Positions 16,006 through 33,172 of a DNA stretch of 64,000 nucleotides are shown piece after piece. Source of the DNA: Ruminiclostridium herbifermentans (lineage in GTDB: Bacteria; Bacillota; Clostridia; Acetivibrionales; DSM-1351); the NCBI RefSeq assembly GCF_005473905.2, contig NZ_CP061336.1:1728501-1792500 (forward strand). The letters run 5' to 3'. Position 1 is the first letter of the stretch, and every line of letters starts with the position of its first letter. The notes beneath the pieces were generated by a model. That model was not told the DNA's origin. It made no database searches and saw nothing but the letters and a program-made list of their open reading frames with translations. A program made the translations under genes and the position numbers.

Positions 16006-16736
16006 TTACAAGCAATATCTTTCTTTTATTATATTACTTTTATCAAATGTCATTAATGCTGTTTCAGTACAACCGTTAAAATAAACAGTATAAGTTTTTT
16101 TGCTCATAAGGCGTATTTCATTGATGTAATTCAAGTTTATAATATAACCTTTATGTGAACGAAAAAAATTATCTGGCAGCCGTTTCTCAAGGTTCTTTAT
16201 TGAAGTCCAGATAGAATAGTTTTTATTTTTTGTCACTATAAGAACCTTTCTGTCATAGCGTGTAATAAAAATTATATCATGAATATTGATAATGTAGCTT
16301 ATTCCTTCACTTTCTATATATATCCTATCCAAAACTTCTTGAGTTTTTACTGACATATCATTTAATTCATTTTGAGATCTATTTATTTTTAAATCAGTAA
16401 ACCTGTTGAGAGTCTGCGTAATTCTTTGCAGCTTTAATGGTTTTAGCAAATAGTCATATGCATAGACATCAAAAGCATCCTTAAGATATTTTTCTTAAAT
16501 ATAATATTCGTTAATGGACTTACAACATTAATTTTTTTAGCAACTTCAATTCCATTACTTTCCCCTAATTCAATTTCAATAAAAACAATATCAGGTTTGT
16601 AAATATTAACGATTTTAAGTAATTCACTTTCATTATCTGATTCGCCAATAATACAAATATTATTAAATTTTTCTAAAAAATGTTTTAGCGTGTTTTTTGA
16701 TTCTTGCGAAACATCTGCAATTGCGATATTAATCAT
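16006..16736 (-). pseudogene. Broken LytTR-family response regulator
   Basis: Two minus-strand frames make one response regulator. 16736-16443 encodes a receiver domain up to LTNIIF; the frame then shifts, and homology resumes as EKYLKDAFDVYAYDYLLKPLK, followed by an intact LytTR DNA-binding domain ending at 16006. Compared with the usual TAxEKY region, about four codons are replaced by two bases, a net loss of about 10 nt that also removes the conserved signalling Thr/Ser. The receiver is degenerate too: the phospho-acceptor position reads FIEIEL (Glu for Asp), and the acidic pocket reads IAIADV. A TTG at 16449 could restart translation to give the LytTR half alone. It is divergent from the 17-33 kb locus and may once have controlled it. 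Confidence 0.8.
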
Positions 16737-17041
16737 AAAATCAACTCCTTATTTACAATTTATTGATAAATAATATCAAAAATAGTTAGATAAGTAATTA
16801 ATTAATGTCTTAAAATATACAATTATTGCTTAAAAGTAATTATATGGTGATTATAAATAAATGAAACATAAAAGTATATAAATAAAAAAAATATAAATTA
16901 GTAAAAAAGGAACCATAAAATATACTATTTGCACAATAAAATATTAAAATAAGACAAAATCTATTCAAAAAACAACAAATAGTGGATATTATTAACTAAA
17001 AAAAGATAGTAATTTATCAGCAATAAAGGAGAGTGTATGAA
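16737..17041. other. AT-rich divergent promoter region, no gene
   Basis: 305 nt of very AT-rich DNA between the broken regulator and the start of the heptose/NRPS locus. It should hold the divergent promoters, but I could not pick a convincing -35/-10 pair or LytTR direct repeats by eye. The only clear element is the ribosome binding site aaggagag at 17026-17033 for the next gene. Confidence 0.4.
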
Positions 17042-19789
17042 ATGAATGTTATGATTACAGGAGTAACTGGTTTTGCAGGTAGCTATTTAGCTGAATACCT
17101 AGTTAAAAAACCAGGAGTCAAAGTATTTGGACTTAAAAGATGGAATAGTCCTATGCAAGATATTAAACAAATAGAGGATAAAATAAATTTAATAAATTTC
17201 GACCTAGGTGATCCTCATTCTATTTACCGTGCTGTTAACGAAATAAAGCCAGATAAAATCTTCCATCTTGCAGCACAGTCATATGTACCTATGAGCTTTA
17301 GGGCACCAATAGATACACTTAGAGCAAATGTTTTTGGAACGGTAAGCATACTTGAAGCAGTATTGGAATCTGGGTGTAATCCAGTAATACATGTATGTAC
17401 TTCGTCAGAAGTATATGGGCAGGTAGAAGAAAAAGACTTACCAATTAATGAAGATACTCCATTTAGACCACAAAGTCCATATGGAGTGAGTAAGGTTGCA
17501 GAAGATCTTATAGCATACCAATATCATGTTACTTACGGATTAAAAATCGTCAGATCCCGTTCATTTACGCATACCGGTCCTAGAAGTAAGCAGGTCTTTG
17601 TAGCACCTTCATTTGCAAAGCAGATTGCAGATATAGAAGCAGGTATAAAAAAAGATAATACAATTTATGTAGGGAATCTTGACTCAGTCCGTACATTTCT
17701 TGATATAAGGGATATGGTGGAAGCTTACTGGCTGCTCACTGAAAAAGGTATTCCTGGTGAAGCTTATAATATTGCAGGTACTCATACATGTAAAGTGGGA
17801 GAAATGCTTAATACACTACTTAGTATGACAGATGTGAAGCTGAAATCTGGTATATATTTCATTGCAGAGGTTGGAAAGTCATGTAATGGTAACTTAGATT
17901 ATTGTTTGAAAATATTAAGGGAGTGTAAAAAATCTGGAGTAAATGCTGTAAGGTTTCACCATTTCTTTTTAGAGGAAAGCGTACATCCAAGTGTATTAAA
18001 GAAAACATCACAAACTGAACGAGCGTGGTCACTCCAGCTAAAATTACCATTTATTGATGAAATATTATTCAATGAAATGGACTATAGAACTATTCTTGAA
18101 TACTGTAGAGAACTTGGTTTAGACTTTATAGCTACTCCTTGGGATCTTAAATCTTTTGAATTATTCAAAAAAATTGGAATAACAGACTTTAAAGTACATT
18201 CAATGAATGCAATGAATATACCTCTAATATCTGCTATTCTTGAAAATAGTCATAAACTCTATCTTTCAACAGGTGGAATGACAGAAAAGCAAGTTGAAAT
18301 ATTGTGCCGCAATCTTAGACTTTCTGAATACAATGTAGTGTTGATGCACGCAGTTTGTGCATATCCTGCGCCTGAAAGTACTATAAATATGAGAGCATTA
18401 AACATACTTAAAAAATATAGTAAGTCAGTTGGTTATTCCAGTAATGATTTAAACAAAAGTTCTGTTTTATCTGCTTGTGCTTTAGGAGCAGATGTTATTG
18501 AAAAACATGTTCATTTATATGATGACCAACTTGGTTTACATAAGTCGTCTGTAAATGTAAAAAGTATTGGTGAGATGATTCGAAATATTAATGAAATTAA
18601 GACTATTATTGGTAAAGAAATCAAGTATGAATCTAGGGGCGAAATGGTAAATCAAGAAATTCTGTCAAAAAGTATTGTTCTAAAGAAAGATGTTAAACAA
18701 GGTAAAATACTCGAAGAATCTGATGTTACACTACAGCTTCCAGTAAAAGAGGTAAATGCAAAGCAGTGGTTTGATGTAATAGGAAAAGAAGTAACTAGTA
18801 ATTTGCAAAAAGGTGATTATCTGCATAGTTGCGATATTTTAAACTCAAAACTTGAGGAAGCTAAAAAGGATTCTTCTTTATCAACAAATTTAAACGAAAG
18901 AGTATTTATTCCAGGGAAAATAGGAGTAGTAGCAAGATTTAAAGACATAGATGAAATGATTAAAAACAGAAACATAGATTATGTTGAGATACATTATGCT
19001 GCTAGTGACTTAAAAAAAGAGGATGAATGCAAGGATTATGATTTAGACTTAGTTGTACATTTACCTGAATACTCAGATGGCAAGTTACTTGATTTATGTT
19101 CTTATGATGAAGAGTTTAGATTGTTTTCAGTTAGTGTAATAAACAGCGTAATGGAGAAGGCTAGAAACCTTAAACGTCACTTTAAAAAGTGTACAGGTGA
19201 TGTAAAGTTTATTGTTCACCCTGGGACAATGACATATCCTCATTTTTTAGAGGATCCAAGTAGGCAATATGAATTGTTTGAAGATTCACTGAGAAGAATG
19301 GACACCAGCGGCCTTGAGGTTTTAGTAGAAAATATGGTTACTTACCCGTGGTTTATTGATGGAGGCTGGGTACCAAAACAAGGAGTTAGCAATACCTTCC
19401 TTAGTGCTATAGATATGTATAATTTCTGTAAAAAACTAAATTTAGGGATGTGTTTGGACTTATGTCATGCAAAGTTATACACAAACTATACGGGAGAAAG
19501 TTTTCTGGAGTATATGAAAATAGTCAAACCAGTTGTAAAGCATATTCATTATTCAGATTGCTTAGGCTTAGATGGCGAGGGATTGCAAGTTGGTGAAGGT
19601 GATATGGACTGGGAAGATGTGTGTAGAGTATTCAGTGATTTCCAATTTGGCTGGACACCTGAAATTTGGAATGGACATCATGATAATGGAGAGAAATTCT
19701 ATGAAGCTCATAGAAGACTAAATGATAAATTCAAGCAGTATCGAACTAAAGCTTTATCAAGCTGCAAGGATTTTAAAGGGGATGCATAA
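17042..19789 (+). CDS. Three-domain SDR epimerase/dehydratase - NeuB-like synthase - TIM-barrel protein
   Basis: 915-aa fusion. Residues ~1-268 are a GDP-mannose-4,6-dehydratase-like SDR (GVTGFAGSYLAEYL nucleotide loop, TSSEVYG, YGVSK catalytic Tyr/Lys). Residues ~269-600 are a NeuB sialic-acid-synthase-like TIM barrel with C-terminal SAF-type segment (FIAEVGKSCNGN, ATPWD, STGGMTE, IEKHV). Residues ~620-905 resemble a xylose-isomerase/AP-endonuclease-type TIM barrel (VENMVTYPWF, CLDLCHAKL, HIHYSDC). The SDR stops about 50 residues short of usual and joins NeuB directly. The NeuB GYSDH motif reads GYSSND (464-469), losing an expected metal-ligand His. ATG at 17042 is chosen over GTG 17033 for spacing to aaggagag. 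Next to GDP-heptose genes, so a modified heptose or nonulosonate-like product is inferred. Confidence 0.85.
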   Translation: MNVMITGVTGFAGSYLAEYLVKKPGVKVFGLKRWNSPMQDIKQIEDKINLINFDLGDPHSIYRAVNEIKPDKIFHLAAQSYVPMSFRAPIDTLRANVFGTVSILEAVLESGCNPVIHVCTSSEVYGQVEEKDLPINEDTPFRPQSPYGVSKVAEDLIAYQYHVTYGLKIVRSRSFTHTGPRSKQVFVAPSFAKQIADIEAGIKKDNTIYVGNLDSVRTFLDIRDMVEAYWLLTEKGIPGEAYNIAGTHTCKVGEMLNTLLSMTDVKLKSGIYFIAEVGKSCNGNLDYCLKILRECKKSGVNAVRFHHFFLEESVHPSVLKKTSQTERAWSLQLKLPFIDEILFNEMDYRTILEYCRELGLDFIATPWDLKSFELFKKIGITDFKVHSMNAMNIPLISAILENSHKLYLSTGGMTEKQVEILCRNLRLSEYNVVLMHAVCAYPAPESTINMRALNILKKYSKSVGYSSNDLNKSSVLSACALGADVIEKHVHLYDDQLGLHKSSVNVKSIGEMIRNINEIKTIIGKEIKYESRGEMVNQEILSKSIVLKKDVKQGKILEESDVTLQLPVKEVNAKQWFDVIGKEVTSNLQKGDYLHSCDILNSKLEEAKKDSSLSTNLNERVFIPGKIGVVARFKDIDEMIKNRNIDYVEIHYAASDLKKEDECKDYDLDLVVHLPEYSDGKLLDLCSYDEEFRLFSVSVINSVMEKARNLKRHFKKCTGDVKFIVHPGTMTYPHFLEDPSRQYELFEDSLRRMDTSGLEVLVENMVTYPWFIDGGWVPKQGVSNTFLSAIDMYNFCKKLNLGMCLDLCHAKLYTNYTGESFLEYMKIVKPVVKHIHYSDCLGLDGEGLQVGEGDMDWEDVCRVFSDFQFGWTPEIWNGHHDNGEKFYEAHRRLNDKFKQYRTKALSSCKDFKGDA

Positions 19790-19790
19790 A

Positions 19791-21086
19791 ATGAAGGCAG
19801 TAATACTAGCCGGTGGGTTAGGAACCAGATTACGCGAATTTACTAAAGAAGAAGTCCCCAAGCCAATGGTTAAAATAAATGAAGAACCTATTTTACAGCA
19901 TCAAATCAAAAAACTTAAAAAATATGGAATAACGGAAATTATTTTTATTATAGGTTATCTAGGTAGCAAAATAAAAGAGTATTTTGGTGATGGAAGAAAA
20001 TTTGGCGTAACAATTCAATATTTTGAAGAAACTGAACCATTAGGAACTGCCGGAGCTTTATATTATATTAGAAACCTGTTGCATAATCAATTTCTAGTAG
20101 TGTTCGGCGATATAATATTTGATATGGATTTAGATAGATTTATTAGGTTTCACAATGAGAATGAAGCAGATTGTTCCATAGTTATCCATCCGAATAATCA
20201 TCCATATGACAGTGATGTTATTGCTTTAGACAAAAATAATAGAGTAATAAATATTCTTGAAAAAAACCAGACTAGAGATTTTTATTATAATAACTGTGTG
20301 ATTGCAGGAATGTTTCTTCTGAATATAAGTGTAATAGAGTATATTAAGGAAGGTGTAAAACAGGATCTTGTAAAGAATGTGATTTCTAATATTCTTCCAG
20401 ATAAAAAGGTTTTGGGGTATAGAACTACTGAGTATCTCAAAGACATGGGCACCCCAGATAGATATTTGCTTGTACAAAAGCATATGGTTGAAGGGATTGT
20501 GGCACAAAGGAATTTATCCAATAGGCAGAAAGCAGTTTTTATTGATAGAGATGGTACTATAAATAAGTACTGTGGTTTGGTATCAAAACCTGAGGAATTG
20601 GAAGTTTTTGAGGAAGCTTATACAGCACTAAAATTATTAAATAATTCTGAATATCTCAGCATAGTGATTACAAATCAGCCTGTTGTGGCCAGAAATCTCT
20701 GTACAATTGATGAACTTGATAATATACATAAAAAGTTGGAATATGATCTAGGCTTAAGAGGTGTATATATTGATGATTTATACTATTGTCCCCATCACCC
20801 TGACAAGGGTTATCCAGAAGAAAACAAGCTTTACAAAATAGAATGTGATTGTAGAAAGCCTAAAATTGGACTTATTCAAAGTGCTGTTGAGAAATATAAT
20901 ATCGATTTGTCTTCATCATTTATGATAGGTGATTCAACCATAGACATTCAAACAGGGAAAAATGCGGGCTTAAAAACTATTCTTCTAGGATCTGGTGTGA
21001 TTGAAAATGATGCTAAATATAAAGCTAAACCCGATTACTATTCTGCAAATATATTAGAAGCAGTAAAAATCATTATTAATAAGTAG
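19791..21086 (+). CDS. HddC-GmhB fusion: heptose-1-phosphate nucleotidyltransferase plus heptose-bisphosphate phosphatase
   Basis: 431-aa two-domain enzyme for activated heptose. Residues ~1-240 are a sugar-phosphate nucleotidyltransferase (LAGGLGTRLREFTKEEVPKP, then GDIIFDMDLD), matching HddC, which makes GDP-D-glycero-alpha-D-manno-heptose. Residues ~245-431 are a GmhB-type HAD phosphatase: nucleophile region FIDRDGTIN (Asp252, Asp254), zinc-type loop CPHHPDKGYPEE...CDCRKP and GDSTIDIQTG. The two steps are consecutive in the pathway (bisphosphate to 1-phosphate to nucleotide sugar), so the fusion is logical. The start ATG at 19791 comes one base after the previous stop, with aaagggg before it, so translation is coupled. 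GDP rather than ADP is inferred from family resemblance and the HddA partner. Confidence 0.85.
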   Translation: MKAVILAGGLGTRLREFTKEEVPKPMVKINEEPILQHQIKKLKKYGITEIIFIIGYLGSKIKEYFGDGRKFGVTIQYFEETEPLGTAGALYYIRNLLHNQFLVVFGDIIFDMDLDRFIRFHNENEADCSIVIHPNNHPYDSDVIALDKNNRVINILEKNQTRDFYYNNCVIAGMFLLNISVIEYIKEGVKQDLVKNVISNILPDKKVLGYRTTEYLKDMGTPDRYLLVQKHMVEGIVAQRNLSNRQKAVFIDRDGTINKYCGLVSKPEELEVFEEAYTALKLLNNSEYLSIVITNQPVVARNLCTIDELDNIHKKLEYDLGLRGVYIDDLYYCPHHPDKGYPEENKLYKIECDCRKPKIGLIQSAVEKYNIDLSSSFMIGDSTIDIQTGKNAGLKTILLGSGVIENDAKYKAKPDYYSANILEAVKIIINK

Positions 21087-21271
21087 TATTAGTAAATGTA
21101 ATAGTTAAATTTGATATAAATTCCAAATCACTACTATTTTATCTTATATAAGAGAATATTAACTATGTCACTAAGTATAAGATATTTATTGAACTAGGAA
21201 AGTCAAAAATCACCTGATTAAAATGCTATAAAATCCACATAAAGTATATAACTTTAAAAGGAGGAATTCTA

Positions 21272-21871
21272 ATGGAAACATCAAGTTTAGAGAAGATTGA
21301 TGTTGATTTTTATAGAAGCATCGATATGTATCTAGGCACATTAAAACTTCAAGTTGACATGTTAGATGTGAATGAAATAAATACAGTGATTTTGAAATTG
21401 CTTGAAGTATATGATAGAAAAGGATTTGTATATGTTTTTGGAAATGGAGGCAGTGCTTCAACAGCATCGCATTTTGTAAATGATTTCAATAAAGGTGTAA
21501 GTGAGAAGTTAGTTAAGAGATTCAAATTTTGCTGCCTTAATGACAATGTATCATCAATTATGGCTATTGCAAATGATATTAGCTATGATGAAATATTCAG
21601 ATTTCAATTAAAAAACTATCTGACCAAAAATGATCTTGTAATTGGAATCTCTGGAAGTGGTAATTCAAAAAATGTTGTTAATGCAATTGAATATGCAAAT
21701 TATGTTGGAGCAGAAACAATCGGATTAGTTGGATATGACGGAGGTAAGCTGAAAGAACTTGCAAAGTACTGTATCCATGTTCCAATTAGAGATATGCAAA
21801 AGGTCGAAGATATACATATGATACTTGAACATTTAATTATGAGTATAATAAAAGGATATTTAAGGGGGTGA
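21272..21871 (+). CDS. gmhA: Sedoheptulose-7-phosphate isomerase (GmhA-like SIS protein)
   Basis: 199-aa SIS-domain isomerase, first enzyme of the heptose pathway: sedoheptulose 7-phosphate to D-glycero-D-manno-heptose 7-phosphate. The phosphate-binding loop GNGGSAST sits at 57-64, a second sugar-phosphate loop GISGSGNS later, and EDIHMILEHLI near the C-terminus matches the catalytic Glu/His region of GmhA. ATG at 21272 with aggaggaat just before. A 185-nt gap with no visible gene separates it from the HddC-GmhB gene, while its stop overlaps the leader of the downstream kinase, so the two are surely co-translated. Confidence 0.88.
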   Translation: METSSLEKIDVDFYRSIDMYLGTLKLQVDMLDVNEINTVILKLLEVYDRKGFVYVFGNGGSASTASHFVNDFNKGVSEKLVKRFKFCCLNDNVSSIMAIANDISYDEIFRFQLKNYLTKNDLVIGISGSGNSKNVVNAIEYANYVGAETIGLVGYDGGKLKELAKYCIHVPIRDMQKVEDIHMILEHLIMSIIKGYLRG

Positions 21872-21876
21872 TTAAA

Positions 21877-22866
21877 TTGGTTATCAGTCAAACACCTCTT
21901 AGAGTAAGTTTTTTTGGCGGAGGGACTGATTTCAAGGCTTACTATGAAAATTATGGCGGAACAGTTTTAAGTGCTGCAATAAACAAGTATATATATGTAA
22001 TTGTCACTCCAAGAGATGATGATGATATTGTATTGAATTATTCTAAAAGAGAAAGAGTCAATAATGTTAATGATATAGAACATAAAATAATTCGAGAAGC
22101 ATTAAAAATAACTAACATAACAAGAGCAATTGAAATAACAAGTTTTTCAGATATACATTCAGATGGCAGCGGACTTGGCTCATCAAGTGCATTTACAGTT
22201 GGCTTGCTAAATTCTCTTTTTGCGTACAAGGGAGAGTATAAGAATCCAGCAGAACTTGCAGAATTTGCATGTAAGATAGAAATAGACATTTTGGGAGAAC
22301 CGATAGGTAAACAGGACCAGTATGCATCTGCTTTTGGAGGGTTAAAAAAATATAGCTTCAATAAAGATGGCACAGTTACTGCAAAGGAAATTGAAGCTAC
22401 CCCTGAAGCATTTAATACACTTAATATATGTACAAGCTTATTTTATACCGGAATTACCAGGAAGGCATCTAGCGTATTACATGATCAGAAAACAAAAATA
22501 GGTATAAATATTGAAAATCTCAATAGGCTAAAGGAAATTACATTGCAAGGTGAAGAGTACATAAGAAATGCGGATATTGAAAATATAGGGAGACTTCTTA
22601 ATGAAAATTGGGAAAATAAAAAAAGACTGTCAAATAAAATAAACAATGATAAAATTGATGCTATTTATTCTAAGGGAAGACAAGCAGGTGCCTATGGAGG
22701 TAAACTGCTAGGTGCTGGAGGTGGAGGCTATTTTCTCTTTGCATATCCGCTGGAAAACTATAAAAATATAAAGTCCGCGCTAGAAGATTTTAAGGAAATG
22801 CCATTTACTTTTGAGTTTGCAGGAAGCAGAATTGTTTTTAATAATGGCAAAAATACAGTAGTATGA
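21877..22866 (+). CDS. hddA: D-glycero-D-manno-heptose 7-phosphate kinase (HddA-like GHMP kinase)
   Basis: 329-aa GHMP-family kinase that should phosphorylate C1 of heptose 7-phosphate to the 1,7-bisphosphate. It opens with VISQTPLRVSFFGGGTDF (typical of HddA), has the ATP loop DGSGLGSSSAF at 96-106 and the C-terminal GAYGGKLLGAGGGGYFLF motif. I chose the TTG at 21877: the ribosome binding site aaggggg ends at 21868, so the GTG at 21868 is too close, and the TTG gives the usual family N-terminus. With GmhA and HddC-GmhB it completes the four steps to GDP-heptose. Confidence 0.88.
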   Translation: MVISQTPLRVSFFGGGTDFKAYYENYGGTVLSAAINKYIYVIVTPRDDDDIVLNYSKRERVNNVNDIEHKIIREALKITNITRAIEITSFSDIHSDGSGLGSSSAFTVGLLNSLFAYKGEYKNPAELAEFACKIEIDILGEPIGKQDQYASAFGGLKKYSFNKDGTVTAKEIEATPEAFNTLNICTSLFYTGITRKASSVLHDQKTKIGINIENLNRLKEITLQGEEYIRNADIENIGRLLNENWENKKRLSNKINNDKIDAIYSKGRQAGAYGGKLLGAGGGGYFLFAYPLENYKNIKSALEDFKEMPFTFEFAGSRIVFNNGKNTVV

Positions 22867-22899
22867 TAGAAACAGCATATGTTTCAGATTGGAGATACC

Positions 22900-24264
22900 A
22901 TGGCAGAGATAAAAAATACTAACTGTAGGATAGATATACTTTCAGCAGCAGAACATTTATCCCGTGCTATCCAATATAAAACCATATCTTATGAGAACAC
23001 AAATAAAATGGATAATTTGGAATTTCTAAAATTTCGATTATTTCTTGAAGATACATTTCCGCATGTGTTTAAAAATTTAAAAATTGATATTATTAACAAA
23101 ATGAGTATTCTTTTAAAATGGGAAGGCATTGGACAAAATGCAGGTGCTATACTCCTGATGGCGCATATGGATGTAGCATCGGTTGAAGCTGGAACTGAAA
23201 ATAATTGGAGCTATCCTCCGTTCTCAGGAAAAATATCAAAAGGATACATTTGGGGACGTGGTGCACTTGATATGAAAAGCCAGCTAATGGGTATCCTTGA
23301 AGCAATAGAGGAACTTTTGAAAAATAATTTTACTCCCCAAAACACTATATATCTAGCATTTGGACATGACGAAGAAATCGGAGGAAGTGGTGGTAATGCC
23401 CATATAGCAGATTATTTGAAAGAAAAAGGAGTTACTCTTTCTGCAGTGTTAGATGAAGGTGGTTTTATTTTAAAAAATGCTGTTGCAGGTGTAACTAAGC
23501 CTTTGGCAGTAATAGGTATAGCAGAAAAGGGTACTACAACATTGGAACTAACATCCTTTTCTACAGGAGGGCACTCATCTATGCCTCCGAGACATACAGC
23601 TATCGGAAAGCTAGCTACAGCTATATACAGACTAGAGAAAAAACAATTTCGCCCAAAGTTAGATGGAGCTGCAAAAGAGTTTTTAAATACAATTATAACT
23701 CAAATGCCATTAATCAAAAGAATTGTTTTAAAGAACACCTGGTTGTTTAAGCCACTTGTATTAAAAATTCTTACAAATTCTAAAACTACTAACGCTTTAG
23801 TAAGAACTACAATTGCTGTAACGATGATAGAAGGTGGGATAAAAGAAAATATACTTCCGCAAAAGGCAAAAGCAAATATTAACTTTAGAATCTTACCAGG
23901 AGAAACTATAACTAGTATAAAGGAAAAAGTAGAAAAAATTATAGGGTGTGACGGTATTGAAGTCAAAATAAAAGAAAATAGCTTTAATCCTATAGAGCCT
24001 TCCAGTAGTAGTTCAGAGGAATATAGAATTATAAGCAAAGTTGTGAAATCTGTTTTCAAGGAGACAATAGTGGCACCATATTTAACTGTTGGGTTAACTG
24101 ATTCTAGATACTATAAAAATATTGCTTCTCAAATATATAGGTTCTGCCCTATTGAAATGAGCATAGGCGATTTAAATACAATTCATGGAGTAAACGAAAA
24201 AATCAGTATAGAGGCTTATGAGAAACTTATAAAATTCTTTTATTTATTAATAAAAGAATTTTGA
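22900..24264 (+). CDS. M20 family metallopeptidase (PM20D1/CPS1-like)
   Basis: 454-aa zinc peptidase/amidase of the M20 family. Metal ligand motifs are present: MAHMDV, GRGALDMKSQ, HDEEIGGSGG with the catalytic Glu, and a late IHGVNE His; the lid domain carries GGHSSMPP. Sequence style fits the carboxypeptidase S/PM20D1 branch, whose members hydrolyse or form N-acyl amino acids. No signal peptide is visible, so it is probably cytoplasmic. In an NRPS locus that appears to make an N-acyl-aminoacyl group, it could trim, recycle or detoxify the product (inference). ATG at 22900 is preferred since ttggaga precedes it closely; an ATG at 22879 is possible. It is 33 nt after the kinase gene. Confidence 0.85.
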   Translation: MAEIKNTNCRIDILSAAEHLSRAIQYKTISYENTNKMDNLEFLKFRLFLEDTFPHVFKNLKIDIINKMSILLKWEGIGQNAGAILLMAHMDVASVEAGTENNWSYPPFSGKISKGYIWGRGALDMKSQLMGILEAIEELLKNNFTPQNTIYLAFGHDEEIGGSGGNAHIADYLKEKGVTLSAVLDEGGFILKNAVAGVTKPLAVIGIAEKGTTTLELTSFSTGGHSSMPPRHTAIGKLATAIYRLEKKQFRPKLDGAAKEFLNTIITQMPLIKRIVLKNTWLFKPLVLKILTNSKTTNALVRTTIAVTMIEGGIKENILPQKAKANINFRILPGETITSIKEKVEKIIGCDGIEVKIKENSFNPIEPSSSSSEEYRIISKVVKSVFKETIVAPYLTVGLTDSRYYKNIASQIYRFCPIEMSIGDLNTIHGVNEKISIEAYEKLIKFFYLLIKEF

Positions 24265-24338
24265 AAAGACTGTTTTGGCTTAATATTTAATTGCATGCAG
24301 AAATTTGTTTATTGTCTTAAAACAAGGGAGAGGTGAAT

Positions 24339-27300
24339 ATGTTAAAGTACAGAAACTTAATAGAATTATTTGAAGATATAAAACAGTGTGATAAAGGAAT
24401 TTATTTTATAGAAGATATTAATAAAGAAGTCTTCATTAAATATGAAGAATTGTATACTAAGTCTTTAAAAATTCTTGGCTTTTTACAAGGAAAAGGGGTA
24501 AAGCCTGGGGATGAAATTATATTCCAGATTCAGGATAATCAATCGTTTATATGTGTTTTTTGGGCATGTATATTAGGTGGAATTATTCCTGTTCCTATAC
24601 CTCTAGGTAATAATGAGGAACATAAACTTAAGATTGTGCGGATATGGAATAATCTGAATAAGCCATACCTTATTACAGAATCGAAGCTTGATAGCTATTT
24701 ATCTGAACAAGAAAGCATAAAAGAACATTCATTTTTAATAGAAGAAGCCATTGATTCGCATAGTTTAGGTAAAATATATACACCTAATTCAGATGACATA
24801 GCTTTTATACAGTTTTCTTCTGGGTCAACAAGTGATCCTAAAGGTGTCATACTTACACATGAAAATTTATTAGTAAACATAAATGCCATGTTAAATGCAG
24901 TAAAAATTTTACCGGATGATGCAACTCTTAGTTGGATGCCTCTTACACATGATTTGGGGCTTGTAGGCTTTCATATATCCTCACTCGCAGGAGGAATTAA
25001 CCAATATATTATGCCAACATCGCTGTTTATTCGACACCCTATTCTATGGATTGAAAAATCAAATGAATATAAAATATCTGTTTTAGCTTCTCCAAACTTT
25101 GGTTACAAACATTTTTTAAGTTCATTTAAGCCTGAACTTGCTTCTAATTGGGATTTATCACATATTCGTTTAATATTAAACGGTGCTGAGCCTATTTCAT
25201 CAGAACTATGCAATTTATTTATAGCTAAAATGTCAGCATATAATTTGAGAAGCAATGTTATTTTACCAGTTTATGGTCTTGCAGAGGCAAGTTTAGCAGT
25301 ATCAATACCTCCTGTTGGTGAGGAATTTGTGACGTTAAGCATTAAAAGGGAGTCTGTTTCTTTAGGTCAGAAGGCTATTTTGGATAGTTCATCATCAGAA
25401 TCAGTAAAATTCGTTGATTTAGGCTTTCCGGTACAGGATTGCTTTGTCAGAATATGTGACGAAGACAATTTAATTGTGGAGGAAAATACCGTAGGAACAA
25501 TTCAAATAACAGGCAAGAATGTTACAAGAGGATACTATAATAATCCACAGGCAACAGCTAATGCATTTACTCAAGATGGGTGGCTGGATACGGGTGATAT
25601 AGGGTTCATGAGAAATGGACGTTTGATTGTTATAGGCAGAAAAAAGGATATTATTTTTATAAATGGACAGAACTATTATCCTTATGATATTGAAAAGACG
25701 GCTGAAGGGTTAGGAATTATTGAGTCAGGGAAAGTTGCTGCTTGCAGTGTACAGGATGAGGTTAGCAAAACAGAGGAGATTTGCATTTTTGTTTTATTTG
25801 GAGGAATGCTTGAGGATTTCGTGCCTATAGCAATTGCTTTAAAAACTAATATAAATAAACTAATGGGCCTAGACATTAAGTATATAATACCTGTAGAGAA
25901 TTTGCCACTAACAGCTAGCGGAAAAGTTCAGAGATATAAGCTGGCAGAAAATTTTAAAAACGGTATGTATGCAGATGTTGTTAACAGAATAAATTGCTTT
26001 ACAGCTGAAAAAGCTCAAGCTAAAAATATTGTATTGCCTGAAAGCGAAATTGAGAAAAAAATTGTTGAACTCTGGGAAGATGTACTTGGAATAGAAAATA
26101 TCGGAGTTACAGATAACTTTTTTGAACTAGGAGGAAATTCTCTAAAAGTATCAAATTTATTGTCTAGAATAGAAGAGCAATTCAACATTAAAATACCTAT
26201 AACAACTGCTTTTGAGATTCTTACAGTAAGAAAACTTTCAGAATTTATAGAAGATGCTAAGAAGAAAGAATACTCAATAATACCTCATATTGAAAAAAGA
26301 GAATATTATCCTGTATCTTCAGCACAGAAAAGGTTAGTTATACTTAATCAAATCGACAGTGACATTACATATAATATTTCTTCGGCTATGCAAATTGAGG
26401 GGATACTGGATACTGAAAGGTTTATAAATGCCTTCAAATTACTTGTGGACAGGCATGAATCTCTAAGAACTAGTTTTGAAATTATAGATGGTGAACCTGT
26501 GCAAAAGATCAGCGAAAAGCTAGAATTTAATATGGATATAACTCTTTGCAAGGATGAGGATGTACCTGAGTTAATAAAGAACTTTATAAGACCGTTTGAT
26601 CTAAGAATAGCACCATTGATAAGAGCTAAGCTTTTGAAAATTAACAATAGAAAACATATTCTTCTATGTGATATGCATCATATAATATCTGATGGAATTT
26701 CGTGTAGCATACTATTTAATGAATTAATAAAGTCATATCAAGGTGCATCGCTTAATGAATTAAAGGTTCAGTATAAGGATTATGCAGTATGGCAGGACGA
26801 AATGCTTAAAACAGAATATACAAGCAAAGAGAAGAAATTCTGGATAAATCAATTTTCAGATGAAATACCTATACTCAATTTTCCCTGCGATTATCAAAGG
26901 CCTGCTGTCCAAAGCTTTGAAGGAAGCAGAGTTTGCTTTGAAATTAATGGGGGATTGCTAGAAAGACTAGAAAGATTGAGTATAAAAACTGGAACAACAC
27001 TATTTATGGTATTTTTGGCAGCGTACAATATACTTTTGCATAAGTATACTGGACAGGAAGACATTGTAGTGGGAACGCCTGTTTCAGGAAGAACTCGTTC
27101 CGAACTAAATAATGTTATTGGTATGTTTGTAAATACGTTGGCTTTAAGAAACTATCCTAAGAGTAATATTAAATTTAGTAGCTTCTTGCAAGATGTAAAG
27201 AATAGATTTTTAATGGCTCTTGAAAATCAAGATTATCAGTTTGAAATGCTGGTAGATGCATTAAAAATAAAAAGGAACATTGATAGAAATCCTTTGTTTG

Positions 27301-30300
27301 ATACAATGTTTGTTTTTCAGAATATGGATTGGGCTGAAGAAACATCCAGTGACATAGTATTTTCAAAATTTGATTTTGAAAGCGGAATATCAAAGTTTGA
27401 TTTTACCCTTTATTCAGTCCCTAAACAAGATAGTATTTATTTTGAATTAGAGTATGCCACTAAATTGTTCAAAAAAAGCACCATTGAACGCTTTGTGGAG
27501 CATTATCAGATTCTGTTGGATATAATATCTCAAAACACTGAAATTCTAATTTCAGATATAGATATATTATCAAAACTTGAAAAGAATCTTCTTTTACTCA
27601 AGTTTAATCAAACACAACAGGAATATCCGAAAAATAAAACAATATGTGACTTATTTGAAGAACAAGTAAAAAAATCTTATGATTGTATCGCTGTAGAAGC
27701 TGGTAATCAAAAACTCACATATGATGAACTGGATATTAAATCGAACAGCCTTGCGCATAAGTTGAGAGAACATGGTGTTACTTCAGACACAATAGTGGGA
27801 TTGTTAATTGAGCGCTCTATTGAGTTTGTAGTTGGTATAATGGCTATATTAAAGGCAGGAGGAGCTTATTTGCCGATAGATCCAGAATATCCTGAAACAA
27901 GAATTAAGTACATACTTGAAGATGCAGGTGCGAAAATTTTACTTACCACTGATTCTATAGAAGAAAGAATTGAGTTTGATGGAACAGTAATAAATCTTCG
28001 AGATAGCAATACTTATTCTGGAAACAGTCAGAAGATTGAAAATATAAATAATCCTAATGATTTAGCCTATGTAATTTATACTTCAGGCTCAACAGGTAAA
28101 CCAAAAGGAGTAATGATTCCTCACAAAGCTCTAAATAATTACTTGCATTGTATATATAAGTGGTATGACGAAGAAATTGATAAAAGAGATAAATGTTTTA
28201 GTCTTGCTAACATATCATTTGATGCAAATGTAGTGGAAATTTTCATGCCTCTTTTATTTGGTGCTACTCTTGTGCTTAACGATCAACCAATACTGATGGA
28301 TTTGGAGCATTTAGCAGACACTCTTGCAGATAAGGAAGTAACTTTTGCATTTATTCCTCCTACAATACTTCAAGATTTATGCAGGTTGCTAAAGGCTAGA
28401 AATTCAAAATTAAATAAAATACTTACAGGTCTTGAGAACATTAAAGATTATGTTCTTGAAGAATTCTTTGAGTTAAACAAAGATATGAAGGTATTAGTAG
28501 GGTATGGTCCAACAGAGGCTACAATATGTGCTTCATTTTATAGGTATAAGTCTGGCAAAACAGTAGGAAAAACTGTACCTATAGGTAAACCACTTGCAAA
28601 TACTCAAATATATCTTACAGATTCAAACTTTAAGTTAGTACCACTAGGTGTGGCTGGAGAATTATGTATTGCTGGTGAAGGCCTTTCAAGAGGTTATCTG
28701 AATAATCCTGCCCTAACTTCTGAAAAGTTTGTAGACAACCCTTTTAGTTTTGGAGAAAAAATGTATAAGACAGGAGATCTTGCAAAATGGAATAGTGATG
28801 GTGAACTGGAGTTTTTGGGTAGATCCGATTTTCAGGTTAAAATTAGAGGTTATAGGGTTGAACTAGGAGAAATCGAATCAAAGCTGCTCAAGCATGAATC
28901 AGTTAAGGAAGCTGTGGTGCTGGACAGAACAGATTCAAATGGTAATAAGTATTTATGTGCATATTTAGTGCAGGATAGAGATATATCTGCTTCTGATTTT
29001 AGAGAGTTTTTATCAAAAGATTTACCAGATTATATGATACCTTCTTATTATGTAAGGATTCAAAATATTCCTTTAACTTCCAACGGTAAAATTGATAGAA
29101 GAGCGCTGCCTGAACCTACATTAAGCTTAGAAACAAAATATGCACCACCTAGGAATGATATAGAAAAAGAACTTGTAGAAGTATGGCAGGAGGTACTAGG
29201 AATAGAGTCGGTAGGTATTTATGATAATTTCTTTGAATTAGGAGGGTCGTCCTTAAAAGCCATTCAGGTCAGTGGAAAGCTTAAGAGTTTTGGCCTAAAC
29301 ATGATGAATATACTTAGGAATCCTACAATTGCTGAACTTAGCAAATATGCTGTTCCATTTGGAGGACAAGGGGTTGAATTACCTGAACAAATGAAAAAAA
29401 ATATCGAACTGGATTATTATTTTGATACACAGGGAAATAGGGATCCTTTAACTGAAAATATGGATTGTGCAAATGTAATGCTTTATTTTATTCTTAAAAA
29501 GCAATTAGGTAATAAAGGAAACTACTCTGAGTACTTTGCACAAGGTTTTGATATGAATATAACAGAGAATCAGTACGGTGGAATATATGATATTAATTTT
29601 TCAACTTATCATTTATGGAAGGATGCTTTTGAAATCAAAAATTATAAAGAAAAGGGTACTGAGGCTATGTCTCAGATTGAGCAGTTACTAGACAAAGGAG
29701 AACAGCTAATTGTAGATATATACTGTCTCAGAAATCCTGCATTTAGAGAATTTGTAAGCTATAACGCTCCTGAAATAAAGGAAAGACGAGGACATTTATT
29801 TATGCTTGTCGCCCGTGACAGTGATAATTTATATTCTGTTGAAATGCCTGAAATGATAAATCCAGATAGATATATTCCTTATATTGAAAATAAGTCTGTA
29901 GGACTTATTCCTAAAAAAGATATACTACCAGCTTTCGAATTTGATGTTTTTTATTCTACTGTTACTGTAAATAAGCAAAAATTACAAGGAGAATCAAAGC
30001 TAAGAGAGCTTGTAGATCTAATAATAAAAAATTATAAAAGATCAGTTACAAATGAAAATGGACTTACAACCTATTACGGCGAAGCTGCACTTGATAAGCT
30101 TATAGAAATATCATGTAAAGAGTTTCAAAGACTTGATGATAAAAACAACATGCAAAACCGTATACTTCAAGAAATATTAGACTGGAAACTTATAACACTC
30201 GCACATCGTAGAAGACTATTTAAAATTACATTAGAAAACTATAGCGGAGAATGTAACAATGATATTAAATGGATGGTTATAAAGCTTTTAGAAGAATCGG

Positions 30301-30446
30301 CTCAAAGATGGAGAGACATATGCCATACTCTAACCAAAAAGTACAATCTGACAAGTGTTATTGATAAGGAGGCAGGCAGGTGCTTTACAGAAATAAAAGA
30401 ACTGGAAAAGGAGTTAATGTATCTATTGGAGAGATTATGGTCTTAA
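24339..30446 (+). CDS. NRPS: acyl-AMP ligase - PCP - C - A - PCP - BtrH-like terminal domain
   Basis: 2035-aa assembly-line enzyme. Residues ~1-575: fatty-acyl-AMP-ligase-type loader (FSSGSTSDPKG, PLTHDLGLVG, SPNFGY). PCP1 at ~580-650 (GGNSLK, Ser601). Condensation domain ~665-1095 with intact HHIISDG (780-786). Adenylation domain ~1105-1600 (YTSGSTGKPKG from 1247), specificity positions read by eye as D-A-V-F-I-T-G-I-C, not a confident match. PCP2 ~1610-1680 (GGSSLK, Ser1638). Residues ~1690-2035 resemble the butirosin BtrH acyltransferase fold, with candidate Cys1710, Asp1793 and His1819, followed by a helical region. There is no thioesterase, so the acyl-aminoacyl chain may be passed to an amine acceptor. 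ATG at 24339 after gggagagg. No phosphopantetheinyl transferase lies in the window. Confidence 0.88.
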   Translation: MLKYRNLIELFEDIKQCDKGIYFIEDINKEVFIKYEELYTKSLKILGFLQGKGVKPGDEIIFQIQDNQSFICVFWACILGGIIPVPIPLGNNEEHKLKIVRIWNNLNKPYLITESKLDSYLSEQESIKEHSFLIEEAIDSHSLGKIYTPNSDDIAFIQFSSGSTSDPKGVILTHENLLVNINAMLNAVKILPDDATLSWMPLTHDLGLVGFHISSLAGGINQYIMPTSLFIRHPILWIEKSNEYKISVLASPNFGYKHFLSSFKPELASNWDLSHIRLILNGAEPISSELCNLFIAKMSAYNLRSNVILPVYGLAEASLAVSIPPVGEEFVTLSIKRESVSLGQKAILDSSSSESVKFVDLGFPVQDCFVRICDEDNLIVEENTVGTIQITGKNVTRGYYNNPQATANAFTQDGWLDTGDIGFMRNGRLIVIGRKKDIIFINGQNYYPYDIEKTAEGLGIIESGKVAACSVQDEVSKTEEICIFVLFGGMLEDFVPIAIALKTNINKLMGLDIKYIIPVENLPLTASGKVQRYKLAENFKNGMYADVVNRINCFTAEKAQAKNIVLPESEIEKKIVELWEDVLGIENIGVTDNFFELGGNSLKVSNLLSRIEEQFNIKIPITTAFEILTVRKLSEFIEDAKKKEYSIIPHIEKREYYPVSSAQKRLVILNQIDSDITYNISSAMQIEGILDTERFINAFKLLVDRHESLRTSFEIIDGEPVQKISEKLEFNMDITLCKDEDVPELIKNFIRPFDLRIAPLIRAKLLKINNRKHILLCDMHHIISDGISCSILFNELIKSYQGASLNELKVQYKDYAVWQDEMLKTEYTSKEKKFWINQFSDEIPILNFPCDYQRPAVQSFEGSRVCFEINGGLLERLERLSIKTGTTLFMVFLAAYNILLHKYTGQEDIVVGTPVSGRTRSELNNVIGMFVNTLALRNYPKSNIKFSSFLQDVKNRFLMALENQDYQFEMLVDALKIKRNIDRNPLFDTMFVFQNMDWAEETSSDIVFSKFDFESGISKFDFTLYSVPKQDSIYFELEYATKLFKKSTIERFVEHYQILLDIISQNTEILISDIDILSKLEKNLLLLKFNQTQQEYPKNKTICDLFEEQVKKSYDCIAVEAGNQKLTYDELDIKSNSLAHKLREHGVTSDTIVGLLIERSIEFVVGIMAILKAGGAYLPIDPEYPETRIKYILEDAGAKILLTTDSIEERIEFDGTVINLRDSNTYSGNSQKIENINNPNDLAYVIYTSGSTGKPKGVMIPHKALNNYLHCIYKWYDEEIDKRDKCFSLANISFDANVVEIFMPLLFGATLVLNDQPILMDLEHLADTLADKEVTFAFIPPTILQDLCRLLKARNSKLNKILTGLENIKDYVLEEFFELNKDMKVLVGYGPTEATICASFYRYKSGKTVGKTVPIGKPLANTQIYLTDSNFKLVPLGVAGELCIAGEGLSRGYLNNPALTSEKFVDNPFSFGEKMYKTGDLAKWNSDGELEFLGRSDFQVKIRGYRVELGEIESKLLKHESVKEAVVLDRTDSNGNKYLCAYLVQDRDISASDFREFLSKDLPDYMIPSYYVRIQNIPLTSNGKIDRRALPEPTLSLETKYAPPRNDIEKELVEVWQEVLGIESVGIYDNFFELGGSSLKAIQVSGKLKSFGLNMMNILRNPTIAELSKYAVPFGGQGVELPEQMKKNIELDYYFDTQGNRDPLTENMDCANVMLYFILKKQLGNKGNYSEYFAQGFDMNITENQYGGIYDINFSTYHLWKDAFEIKNYKEKGTEAMSQIEQLLDKGEQLIVDIYCLRNPAFREFVSYNAPEIKERRGHLFMLVARDSDNLYSVEMPEMINPDRYIPYIENKSVGLIPKKDILPAFEFDVFYSTVTVNKQKLQGESKLRELVDLIIKNYKRSVTNENGLTTYYGEAALDKLIEISCKEFQRLDDKNNMQNRILQEILDWKLITLAHRRRLFKITLENYSGECNNDIKWMVIKLLEESAQRWRDICHTLTKKYNLTSVIDKEAGRCFTEIKELEKELMYLLERLWS

Positions 30447-30527
30447 GGAAATTTCTATTATAGGTATATGACTACTACTGATATTAACGATTCATTCTAA
30501 ATAAAATAAGAAAAGGAAGAATAATGA

Positions 30528-31838
30528 ATGCAAGATGCAGCGATTTTAGACAGAAACATTAGCCCAGTTAATATGAAATTGAATTTATTGCTACTTGTAT
30601 CAGGTAGATTCATATCAGGTATAGGGTCAACAGTATTAACATTTGCTTTAAGCTTATATGTATTGGACATAACCGGGACGGCAGGTACTTTTTCTTTGGT
30701 ATTGAGCCTATCCGTCCTCCCTATGATTTTCGTAAACATGTTTACAGGTGTCTTTGTTGACAGATATAACAAAAAAAGAATTATTGTCGGATCAGATATT
30801 TTAAGTGGCGTAATAGTTATTGCATACACAGGATTACTCAATTTTTATCCCAAAAGCATTGTGCTTATAGTTTTTTATGTTCTAACAATAAGCACAATTC
30901 AGTCCTTTTTCAACCTTGCAGTAAACTCGTCTATTCCGGAAATCGTAAATAAAGATAACATACCTACAGCAAATGCTGCGATTCAAGGAATATCAGCTAT
31001 AGTAAATATAATAGGACCTATAATAGGAGCTGTGCTATATACAACATTTGGAATTAAAGTGATATTTATGCTAAATGGGATAGTACTTATTCTATCTGGT
31101 ATATTTGAAATGTTTCTCAAATTCAAAAAACTTAATACTTCATCAGATGATAGTATTGGTAAAAAAGGATATCTAGCAGATTTAAAGACGACATTTAGTT
31201 ATTTGTACTCACAAAAAATTATAATTTTCTTTTTAGCCTTTGCAGCAGTAGTAAGTCTTATATATTATCCAATGGTAAGCATGGTTCTGACATATGTAAG
31301 CTACAATATTATGAAAGTTTCCGGGATTCAATTGTCTATTATACAGGCTTCGGCGGCAGTAGGTACAATAGCAGGTGCTTCTCTTATATCTTTTATAAAA
31401 TCACTTAGTAGCAATATGATTAAAAGATTTTTTACATTGTTTAAAATACAGGCAATTTTGTTTATATTGTGGCTATTGCCTTTTGGTGCTCAAACACTTA
31501 CTAAAAATATGTGGGTCATAACAATTATTTTCAGCATTATACTTGTTATATTAAGTTCAGTAAATACTTTACAAAATGTTTCTATGATTTCATATTTCCA
31601 GTTTCAGATACCAGAGGAATTGTTAGGACGTGTTTTTGGAGTATTCATGACAGCAGCATTTATATTTAGTCCTGTGGGACTTTGGTTGTATGGGGTTTTA
31701 CTGGATATATTTAAATGGTATTATTTGACTACTGCTTCTGGAATCATCTTATTACTTATAGGTATTTTTGCAGTGAAAAGTAAATATTTTCAAGACTTTA
31801 TTAATGATTTTAAAATTAAACAGGGTGAAATGTTATAG
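30528..31838 (+). CDS. MFS transporter, probable exporter
   Basis: 436-aa major facilitator superfamily permease, about 12 membrane helices, of the bacterial drug-efflux/enterobactin-exporter-like type. The N-terminal half shows SGRFISGIGSTVLTFALSLYVLDITGT and the loop motif FVDRYNKKRIIVGSD; the C-terminal half has PEELLGRVFGVFMTAAF. The ATG at 30528 follows aaaaggaag; an out-of-frame ATG overlaps at 30524. It follows the NRPS by about 80 nt in the same direction, so export of the NRPS product or self-protection is the natural guess. Substrate not deducible. Confidence 0.87.
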   Translation: MQDAAILDRNISPVNMKLNLLLLVSGRFISGIGSTVLTFALSLYVLDITGTAGTFSLVLSLSVLPMIFVNMFTGVFVDRYNKKRIIVGSDILSGVIVIAYTGLLNFYPKSIVLIVFYVLTISTIQSFFNLAVNSSIPEIVNKDNIPTANAAIQGISAIVNIIGPIIGAVLYTTFGIKVIFMLNGIVLILSGIFEMFLKFKKLNTSSDDSIGKKGYLADLKTTFSYLYSQKIIIFFLAFAAVVSLIYYPMVSMVLTYVSYNIMKVSGIQLSIIQASAAVGTIAGASLISFIKSLSSNMIKRFFTLFKIQAILFILWLLPFGAQTLTKNMWVITIIFSIILVILSSVNTLQNVSMISYFQFQIPEELLGRVFGVFMTAAFIFSPVGLWLYGVLLDIFKWYYLTTASGIILLLIGIFAVKSKYFQDFINDFKIKQGEML

Positions 31839-32329
31839 TATGAGAACTGGCATTTATCACTACAAAGGACAAGCTGTCAAGGCTTGAGTTGGTATTACAG
31901 GCTCTTGACTCATAGATAAATGGTGAGATAGAAATTATCTTTTCTTTCTATGGATTTGATAAAAGCCACAAATGGTAAACAAATACAGACGTTGCTGGTT
32001 TCTACTCCTATTAGTTTTTTATAATATGTCTATCAAGCTTTATGAGTGTATCTCTTGTATTGCCATCAAGAGATACACTCCACTGCTTGACCACATAAGC
32101 ACTACTTTCCATTATCTTCTTCTATACATTCATAGTGGATTGTATTTAGATACTATAGCCTTCTGTAATGAACTATAAGAATTGAATTGTTTCTGCTAAT
32201 GCCTGCATAGTTTTGAACATTTATTGATATCTCCGAGAACATGAGTAAACTGTTATTTTTCAAGGACTAAATTTGAAAATCAATGACCTAGAAAGAATCC
32301 GTTATGAAACTATAAGGGGGATAAAAAAT
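31839..32329. other. Intergenic region with a large imperfect hairpin
   Basis: No convincing gene. GAGTGTATCTCTTG (32044-32057) pairs perfectly over 14 bp with CAAGAGATACACTC (32067-32080) around a 9-nt loop. An outer TCAAGC/GCTTGA stem extends the structure to about 32034-32090. There is no T-run, so it is not a plain terminator. A 68-codon frame crosses the hairpin and looks accidental. Confidence 0.55.
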
Positions 32330-33172
32330 ATGAAAAGGGCTCAAATAACTACATTTTTAAAAGGAATAGTTTTTGATTTATTATTTTTGCTGATATACAC
32401 TTTAAATTCTAAATTTGTAAGTATATTAATGAGTTATGCATCTAAATCTAAATTTATGAGGGCTGTAGAATACTTAAACAATACCATATCTTTAGAAATG
32501 ATATTAAATGTTGTAATTTCTACATTAATATATATCATAATTTTTAGAATAAGAAAAATTAATATATTGACGTTCTGTAAATTTAAAATTATCTGTATAA
32601 AAAATTTAATGTTATCTATTTTTATTGGTATTTCAATATCGATTTTTATACTATGCTTTATGAATATGGAATATTTTGAACCCAATTTATACGCAGTGAT
32701 AAGCTTTTTTGATAGATTTAATAATGGCAATATTTTTTATTTTATGTTTTACAACATTGTTGTTTTTACTATTTTTGAAGAAATGCTTTTTAGGGGATTA
32801 ATATTTAATGAATTGAGGAAAGTTATGCCTCTTACAGTAGCAGTTATTATTCAAGCTTTACCGGCGGCATTTCAGTCAGACATGATGTTGAGTGTATTTG
32901 GATACATTAGCATGGTAATATATTGTCTAGCCTATATTTGCTCCGATTCTATCTGGGGTTCTATTACAGTATTGTATACTTCTCATATATTTGTGATGCT
33001 GACCAGAAGAGCAGGTATAGATAGCTACCTGCAAAGTGTTGGAGATTTTGTACTAATTATAGGAATGTGCGTTAGTGCAATAATAACATGTTTAATATAC
33101 TTTATATGGATAAGTAAAAATCTAAAGAAAAAGGGCTATGACAGCAATGGTTTAATTGGAATGCAAATTTAA
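32330..33172 (+). CDS. CPBP family membrane protein (protease/immunity type)
   Basis: 280-aa membrane protein with about seven or eight helices and a CPBP (CAAX protease/bacteriocin-processing) signature: EEMLFRG supplies the EExxxR motif and a later SHIFVML the third-motif His. The expected FxxxH second motif is not clear (the region reads AAFQSDMM), so protease activity is doubtful. The ATG at 32330 is used because aaggggg lies about 9 nt before it; a TTG at 32273 would add 19 residues. CPBP proteins often sit in antimicrobial loci as processing or immunity factors, which fits its place after the NRPS and exporter (inference). Confidence 0.72.
   Translation: MKRAQITTFLKGIVFDLLFLLIYTLNSKFVSILMSYASKSKFMRAVEYLNNTISLEMILNVVISTLIYIIIFRIRKINILTFCKFKIICIKNLMLSIFIGISISIFILCFMNMEYFEPNLYAVISFFDRFNNGNIFYFMFYNIVVFTIFEEMLFRGLIFNELRKVMPLTVAVIIQALPAAFQSDMMLSVFGYISMVIYCLAYICSDSIWGSITVLYTSHIFVMLTRRAGIDSYLQSVGDFVLIIGMCVSAIITCLIYFIWISKNLKKKGYDSNGLIGMQI

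Follow-up and report, generated by a model that had tools for sequence, protein, structure and literature searches.

We describe a ten-unit gene set of Ruminiclostridium herbifermentans which combines genes for GDP-heptose supply with a nonribosomal peptide synthetase (NRPS), recurs in R. hungatei DSM 14427 and is under purifying selection. It lies in a 64,000 nt stretch of contig NZ_CP061336.1 (positions 1,728,501-1,792,500, forward strand; referred to as the window, and the source of all positions below), the genome being a single contig of 4.82 Mb. Our favoured but tentative reading is that of a specialised-metabolite operon, in which a fatty-acyl-amino acid would be built on the NRPS and passed to an amine, one which may well sit on a sugar derived from GDP-6-deoxy-heptose. 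If true, this would bring together GDP-heptose, NeuB-type enzymes and product release from an NRPS by an acyltransferase of papain fold within a single small operon, in the genus that is known to make the antibiotic closthioamide.

Gene content and conservation of the operon

The eight open reading frames (ORFs) listed in this paragraph all lie on the plus strand and match the corresponding Pfam families, confirming the gene positions and common strand given in an earlier note made from the sequence alone. The first ORF (17033-19789) joins a short-chain dehydrogenase/reductase (SDR) resembling GDP-heptose 4,6-dehydratases but about 50 C-terminal residues short (17033..17840, PF16363), a NeuB-SAF part with changed active-site residues (17841..18829, PF03102 and PF08666), and an AP_endonuc_2 (xylose-isomerase-like) TIM barrel (18860..19789, PF01261). 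It is followed by three genes assigned with Pfam and NCBIfam, i.e. an HddC-GmhB fusion of a sugar-1-phosphate nucleotidyltransferase and a HAD phosphatase (19791..21086, in an ORF which opens at 19722), a GmhA-like SIS isomerase (21272..21871) and an HddA-like GHMP kinase (21868..22866). Downstream are an M20 metallopeptidase/amidohydrolase (22879..24264, PF01546, with HMD and DEE motifs and PRK08262 models matching below cut-off), the NRPS (24333..30446), a major facilitator superfamily (MFS) transporter which is probably an exporter (30528..31838, PF07690, with TIGR00900 below cut-off), and a CPBP/Rce1-like membrane protein (32273..33172, PF02517), for which the alignment with R. hungatei suggests that the true start is perhaps 32330.

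The gene order is common to both species over all ten units (LytTR regulator, SDR, NeuB-TIM, HddC-GmhB, GmhA, HddA, M20, NRPS, MFS and CPBP), and given this recurrence we rejected the idea that the gene set arose as an artefact. Pairwise dN/dS between the two species was 0.06-0.26 per gene or domain, and 0.083 for the NeuB core, although these values are rough because dS was 0.66-1.48.

The NRPS and its C-terminal domain

Based on Pfam, NCBIfam and motifs, the NRPS is predicted to consist of a fatty-acyl-AMP ligase (FAAL), a peptidyl carrier protein (PCP), condensation (C) and adenylation (A) domains, a second PCP and an amide-synthase-like domain. The fatty-acyl loader recognised in the earlier note was supported by FAAL models, matched below their cut-offs, and by an HDLGL motif, and the serine motifs of both PCPs and HHIISDG were present. 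The A-domain pocket, read by eye at the standard positions, was D-A-V-F-L-G-G-I-C, with anchors in both species and no confident amino acid assignment. The 348 residues after the second PCP which close the protein (residues 1690-2037; 29400..30446) had been overlooked in the note.

Pfam gave nothing usable for this domain (its only match, IZUMO at E 0.07, was taken as noise, and BtrH_N was not matched), a 13-row profile against PDB sequences gave six matches with E-values of 0.41-3.7, mostly to designed helical proteins, and a plasmid search gave no relative. A domain profile matched in 4/391 genomes of the class, including stand-alone paralogues in R. herbifermentans and genome G009, and a wider profile matched in 10/58 genomes of the order. 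One of two stand-alone paralogues matched DUF4872 (E 0.12) and the other BtrH_N (E 0.15), which are the two halves of BtrH, with both matches far below cut-off. Some matches of the wider profile are at the end of NRPSs, in two related Ruminiclostridium genomes (L156 and L157), and one is at the end of a short protein from another family whose N-terminus is PCP-like (L158).

For hhalign, 10 of the 16 BtrH_N proteins of the order, a second set of 8 and NeuB as single control were used as targets, with E-values calculated for one comparison. The domain matched BtrH_N with Prob 94.9 and E 4.2e-8 over 246 columns, compared with Prob 89.9 for the second set and 0.3 for the NeuB control. An AlphaFold model from 13 sequences reached a pLDDT of 78.9 and a pTM of 0.79; a first AF2 model from four sequences was poor (pLDDT 53) and was not used for the fold search. 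At E≤0.001, Foldseek gave 12 matches in the PDB, consisting of three AziU2-U3, eight CtaG and one CcbD chains, followed by a gap to E 0.13. These results point to a papain-like fold with a helical C-terminal half. With regard to the putative residues C1712, H1821 and E1837, the Cys and His are conserved in 13/13 domain relatives and the acid is Glu in 12/13 and Asp in 1/13, while the His-to-acid spacing of 16 equals that of H128 and D144, the CtaG residues which PDB entry titles name as mutated.

These models make it very likely that the domain belongs to the BtrH/CtaG/AziU2-U3/CcbD fold group. CcbD is reported to use Cys-His-Glu in coupling proline from a carrier protein with the amino-octose of the lincosamides, and is described as accepting both fatty-acyl and aminoacyl groups (PMC12945683), and BtrH is described as an acyl carrier protein:aminoglycoside acyltransferase (PMC10318531). 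Amide formation with carrier-bound acyl groups is the role of three of these four relatives, although for one of the three it is only a proposal. We consider amide release from the NRPS to an amine probable, which would make this an NRPS release domain that may form amides with free amines, and suggest a sugar as the acceptor only tentatively.

Some related observations were made on this fold group. The genomes behind L156 and L157 contain a polyketide synthase/NRPS-type cluster, in which the C-A-PCP protein ending in the same domain is accompanied by BtrH_N-like proteins. In two other genomes (L040:9226-11659 and L041:8704-11099) a stand-alone domain paralogue adjoins an Orn/DAP/Arg-decarboxylase-like pyridoxal phosphate enzyme, the type of enzyme to which BtrK of butirosin belongs. 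Finally, BtrH_N matches were found in 11/11 Ruminiclostridium genomes, with up to 17 per genome, some within open frames of 1600-4300 aa.

The NeuB-SAF-TIM protein

NeuB-TIM proteins were surveyed by scanning a three-sequence TIM alignment against genome_contigs, which gave 49 loci, one of them R. hungatei. NeuB was in the same open frame as the TIM barrel at 46 of the 48 other loci (it is split in L081, and the L111 locus is cut), and 40/48 of these stretches had a NeuA-like match (E≤1e-4, some short). Matches to FAAL- or A-type ligases were found on 6/48, GmhA on one and HddA on one, and M20, the C domain and the NRPS C-terminal domain matched on none of the 48. A plasmid search gave a single near-full-length, albeit distant, NeuB-TIM relative, an Ensifer copy with the order CBS-NeuB-SAF-TIM adjoining a cytidylyltransferase, and the fused SDR-NeuB-TIM protein had no relative in viral_contigs. 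With the fused protein as query, the SDR part matched in 11/11 genomes of the family and NeuB plus TIM in 2/11, R. herbifermentans and R. hungatei. Among the 391 class genomes only the same two had a match over most of the 655-residue NeuB-TIM, while 56 had a NeuB-type match at 1e-20. The TIM barrel alone as query matched in 1/398 genomes of the phylum, which was R. herbifermentans itself, R. hungatei not being among the matches listed.

The NeuB residues were compared with those of 46 aligned relatives, three LegI-type proteins and the other NeuB of R. herbifermentans. In both Ruminiclostridium NeuB-TIMs the VKxQ motif has Arg for Lys and His for Gln, one site His is replaced by Asn, and the NHNG motif has Cys for its first His. 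The replaced Lys, Gln and His, which we take to be active-site residues with roles known from NeuB structures, are invariant in 46/46 relatives, the three LegI-type proteins and the other NeuB, and neither species has the conserved K-x-Q and both site histidines of a NeuB sialic/legionaminic acid synthase. Among the residues of the conserved motifs, the first Glu, a Lys and one His are retained. The proteins keep 27-28 of 47 core columns (at least 95% conserved), compared with 38-41 in the LegI-type proteins; this count is not telling alone because the genome's other NeuB keeps 30, whereas the lost Lys, Gln and His are. The TIM half keeps 31/36 conserved positions. Since both species share the NeuB changes under purifying selection, altered chemistry looks likelier than decay. 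Going by these residues, a classical nonulosonate product is unlikely. An altered NeuB retained in two species would make a direct case for a new reaction in the NeuB family. The second NeuB mentioned above (G000:C1:173450-179279) has a strong match to a DegT-type aminotransferase nearby, and probably belongs to a separate nonulosonate locus.

The SDR, its junction with NeuB, and the regulator

The SDR-NeuB-TIM fusion pointed out in the earlier note is a single ORF in the window but a local feature, as R. hungatei encodes the SDR (320 aa) and NeuB-TIM (655 aa) in two genes with 200 bases between them. In the window the frame runs from about residue 268 of the SDR straight into NeuB, with around 50 SDR residues and the spacer gone. 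These residues presumably complete the substrate-binding half in this SDR family, and their loss makes SDR function doubtful in R. herbifermentans. When compared with solved structures, the R. hungatei SDR scored 226.6 bits with 2pk3, a reductase, and 224.8 bits with 7us5, a GDP-heptose 4,6-dehydratase; its Tyr-x3-Lys is YGVSK, and the window SDR is truncated. The REC-LytTR response regulator (16006..16740, minus strand, LytTR PF04397) is split over two frames in R. herbifermentans, whereas R. hungatei has an open 250-aa frame (L033:19242-19994). An assembly error may be the cause of the SDR truncation or the regulator split. In a deltaproteobacterial metagenome-assembled genome (L074:3003-6001) an SDR with 47% identity is located directly 5' of a NeuB-TIM with the usual NeuB motifs, together with a NeuA-like gene.

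The heptose cassette

The GmhA, HddA, GmhB and HddC activities are all encoded together in the window, and the sequences support GDP-heptose supply by this cassette, a route characterised in Campylobacter (PMC10680097). Relatives of HddC-GmhB were found in 99/291 genomes of the class at 1e-25, mostly via the nucleotidyltransferase half, and eight neighbourhoods with fused or paired HddC and GmhB matches were fetched. All four genes were together in 8/8, which is partly due to this selection. Among the printed ORFs (starts 3-17.5 kb) no NRPS, M20 or NeuB match was found in any of the eight, while glycosyltransferase-, flippase- or polysaccharide-exporter-like ORFs were recognised by eye in 7/8, the exception being L180. 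The cassette of the inspected Clostridia is thus otherwise found within glycan loci, and looks like a glycan module shared by the operon. By the earlier note's own standard, its reading would fail if heptose genes and NRPS never co-occurred in other genomes, or if the heptose genes paired with S-layer glycosylation genes instead. These neighbourhoods go against the reading, and yet cassette and NRPS stand together in R. hungatei, so the objection holds by half. An SDR with 49% identity is beside GmhA, HddC-GmhB and HddA in L174, and one with 36% identity is present in L175.

Comparison with known systems

Septacidin and spicamycin, with which the earlier note had compared the locus, are nucleosides in which a heptose carries an acyl-aminoacyl side chain. 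Nucleoside families are absent from the Pfam matches of the unit and its flanks, which weakens this comparison, and in our best reading by analogy the lincosamides (lincomycin and celesticetin) offer the closest logic. Their kinase is LmbP and their guanylyltransferase LmbO, while we take LmbR, LmbS and LmbT to be the transaldolase, aminotransferase and S-glycosyltransferase. None of the latter three activities is among the Pfam matches of unit and flanks, and since lincosamide-specific genes are absent, the unit is not a lincosamide cluster. The likeness consists of a higher-carbon GDP-sugar, the lincosamide one being described as GDP-octose (PMC12945683), isomerase and phosphatase steps, there the octulose-8-phosphate isomerase LmbN and the C8 phosphatase LmbK (PMC4351081), and the joining of a carrier-bound acyl group by a Cys-His-Glu cysteine-protease-like enzyme, the amide synthase CcbD/LmbD (PMC12945683). 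It is a functional likeness, drawn from published descriptions: the sugar is an octose there and a heptose here, the synthase-like domain forms part of a FAAL-NRPS here, and aminotransferase and S-glycosyltransferase genes are not in the unit.

BtrH of butirosin, in contrast to the domain described here, is not known to be fused to an NRPS. Similarity to BtrH is at the profile level (BtrH_N, PF14399) and extends to the carrier-protein-dependent acyl transfer to an aminoglycoside described for it (PMC10318531), although the domain here is below Pfam detection. CtaG of the R. cellulolyticum closthioamide pathway shares genus, fold group, a Cys-His-acid set and the His-acid spacing, but has Asp instead of Glu, and its pathway is NRPS-independent and, as far as described in the source, does not involve a sugar (PMC6772006). 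The Campylobacter GDP-6-deoxy-heptose capsule pathway shares the GmhA, HddA, GmhB, guanylyltransferase and 4,6-dehydratase steps (PMC10680097), but there the sugar goes to the capsule, and none of the genes named here corresponds to its C3/C5 epimerase or C4 reductase. The nonulosonate-type loci, such as that of Ensifer (L071), have the same NeuB-SAF-TIM order but keep the NeuB motifs and mostly have the NeuA-like match, L071 also having N-terminal CBS domains. No paper combining Ruminiclostridium, nonribosomal peptide and heptose was found, and none of the titles and abstract starts listed describes the cluster, with subscription literature mostly outside.

Proposed pathway and alternative explanations

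In the sugar arm of the proposed pathway, sedoheptulose 7-phosphate would be isomerised by GmhA, phosphorylated by HddA, dephosphorylated by GmhB and activated by HddC to give GDP-D-glycero-manno-heptose, which the SDR would convert to GDP-6-deoxy-4-keto-heptose. The altered NeuB-TIM may modify this keto-sugar further, most likely via the TIM barrel as an isomerase or epimerase. In the acyl arm, the FAAL would load a fatty acid onto the first PCP, and the C domain would join it to the A-selected amino acid on the second PCP. The C-terminal Cys-His-Glu domain would then take over the N-acyl-aminoacyl chain as a thioester and hand it to an amine, plausibly one carried by the heptose-derived sugar, in the manner of CcbD in lincosamide synthesis; the MFS transporter would export the product, and M20 may trim or detoxify it. 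Gene content, gene order, purifying selection, fold family and the conserved Cys, His and acid are results of the analysis, and beyond these we infer the substrates, the sugar acceptor and the roles of NeuB-TIM and M20. For the acyl-aminoacyl heptose metabolite of the earlier note, the acyl-aminoacyl product and GDP-heptose supply are supported, while the joining of both would depend on the NRPS C-terminal domain as candidate enzyme. It is rather unlikely, though conceivable, that anaerobic Clostridia evolved an assembly line of lincosamide type on their own. In it, one FAAL-NRPS with a CcbD-type synthase of its own would couple a fatty-acyl-amino acid to an amino sugar derived from GDP-heptose, a NeuB-TIM recruited from sialic-acid-type pathways would have acquired new chemistry, and a new lipo-aminoacyl-heptose class would be the product.

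Several results weigh against this pathway. Only two species were seen to carry the unit in full, and the truncated SDR and split regulator mean that the pathway may be impaired in R. herbifermentans. The NCBIfam equivalog scores of GmhA (114.5 vs 209.45), HddA (163.4 vs 600), HddC (102.5 vs 300) and GmhB (144 vs 178) are all below cut-off, so that the GDP-heptose assignment rests on the four activities being side by side. As that note had also seen, no glycosyltransferase or aminotransferase family is among the unit's Pfam matches; the genome has 13 PF01041 matches elsewhere, three of them strong, none tied to the unit, although such an aminotransferase could act in trans to provide the amine. 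For the C-terminal domain, phmmer gave nothing usable and no PDB sequence match, the hhalign match begins before the His strand, continues to the C-terminus and leaves the Cys helix outside, and the Foldseek TM-scores of 0.40-0.56 with rmsd 6.5-8.5 place the kinship at fold level. The top Foldseek match was AziU2-U3, which serves aziridine formation and not amide synthesis, and therefore the fold does not fix the reaction. CtaG is a proposed peptidyl transferase, passing an acyl group to a carrier-bound peptide and not to a sugar (PMC6772006).

The latter proposal is consistent with an alternative in which the amine that NRPS and C-terminal domain turn into an N-acyl-aminoacyl amide is no sugar but, for instance, a diamine, an amino acid or a carrier-bound peptide. 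The sugar would then be attached afterwards by an enzyme whose gene lies elsewhere, or never. The presence of BtrH_N proteins throughout the genus and the absence of an amino-sugar gene from the unit fit this as well, but use of the GDP-sugar would then need a glycosyltransferase, which the unit does not have, and we consider this version rather improbable. It is less probable still that the operon holds two unrelated modules, a surface-glycan heptose cassette and a lipopeptide NRPS: the fetched cassette neighbourhoods (0/8 with an NRPS match, 7/8 with glycan genes) and the frequent NeuA-like matches near NeuB-TIM elsewhere would fit, whereas the same ten units recur in the same order at a different site in a second species, and Pfam found no glycosyltransferase, flippase or polymerase families in the unit or in nine ORFs scanned on its flanks. 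The idea that the locus serves surface glycans and nothing else was rejected, as no glycan genes adjoin in unit or flanks. We regard it as very unlikely that NeuB-TIM works as a genuine ulosonic-acid synthase, with a heptose as substrate and a ten-carbon keto acid, later acylated, as product. While the low dN/dS of the NeuB core and the retained Glu, Lys and His would agree with such an enzyme, the Lys, Gln and His replaced in both species are invariant in all proteins compared and many core columns are lost; the nonulosonate-like product offered as an option in the earlier note is disfavoured by these changes and by the absence of NeuA from the locus.

As for the R. herbifermentans copy itself, the SDR deletion and the regulator in two frames could mean that it is decaying, which we think doubtful: the remaining frames are open and similar in length to those of R. 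hungatei, the SDR-NeuB reading frame is preserved, and pairwise dN/dS is low, although recent loss remains compatible with low dN/dS. Set beside these alternatives, transfer of an acyl-aminoacyl chain to an amine, possibly on a heptose-derived sugar, is still the reading we favour.

Flanking genes and genomic site

A nitroreductase-family protein (14198..14713, minus strand, PF00881) and an Old-yellow-enzyme family flavin oxidoreductase (14954..15982, plus strand, PF00724) flank the operon in both species together with the LytTR regulator; they are 82% and 77% identical to their R. hungatei neighbours (L034), respectively, and both are probable members of the unit. The unit occupies different genomic sites in the two species. 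In the window it is located between GH94 and pheS, which are 23 kb apart here and about 0.66 kb apart in G009 (pheS 96% identical), while the gap measures 1.9-9.9 kb in a further four genomes fetched, without unit matches at E 1e-15 and 40% identity. No matches to the unit were thus found between GH94 and pheS in any of these five genomes. Operon protein identities between the two species are 66-92%, most 76-85%, and resemble those of GH94 (80%) and pheS (91%), which fits an old transfer as well as ancestral presence with losses.

The GH94-pheS interval (window 14031-37304) is a variable site: across six genomes its length is 0.66, 1.9, 2.6, 3.6, 9.9 or 23 kb. It includes a 422-aa protein (34540-35808, minus strand) without a Pfam match at 0.001, and the spacer between MFS and CPBP (31839-32272) is about 300 bases longer than its R. 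hungatei counterpart.

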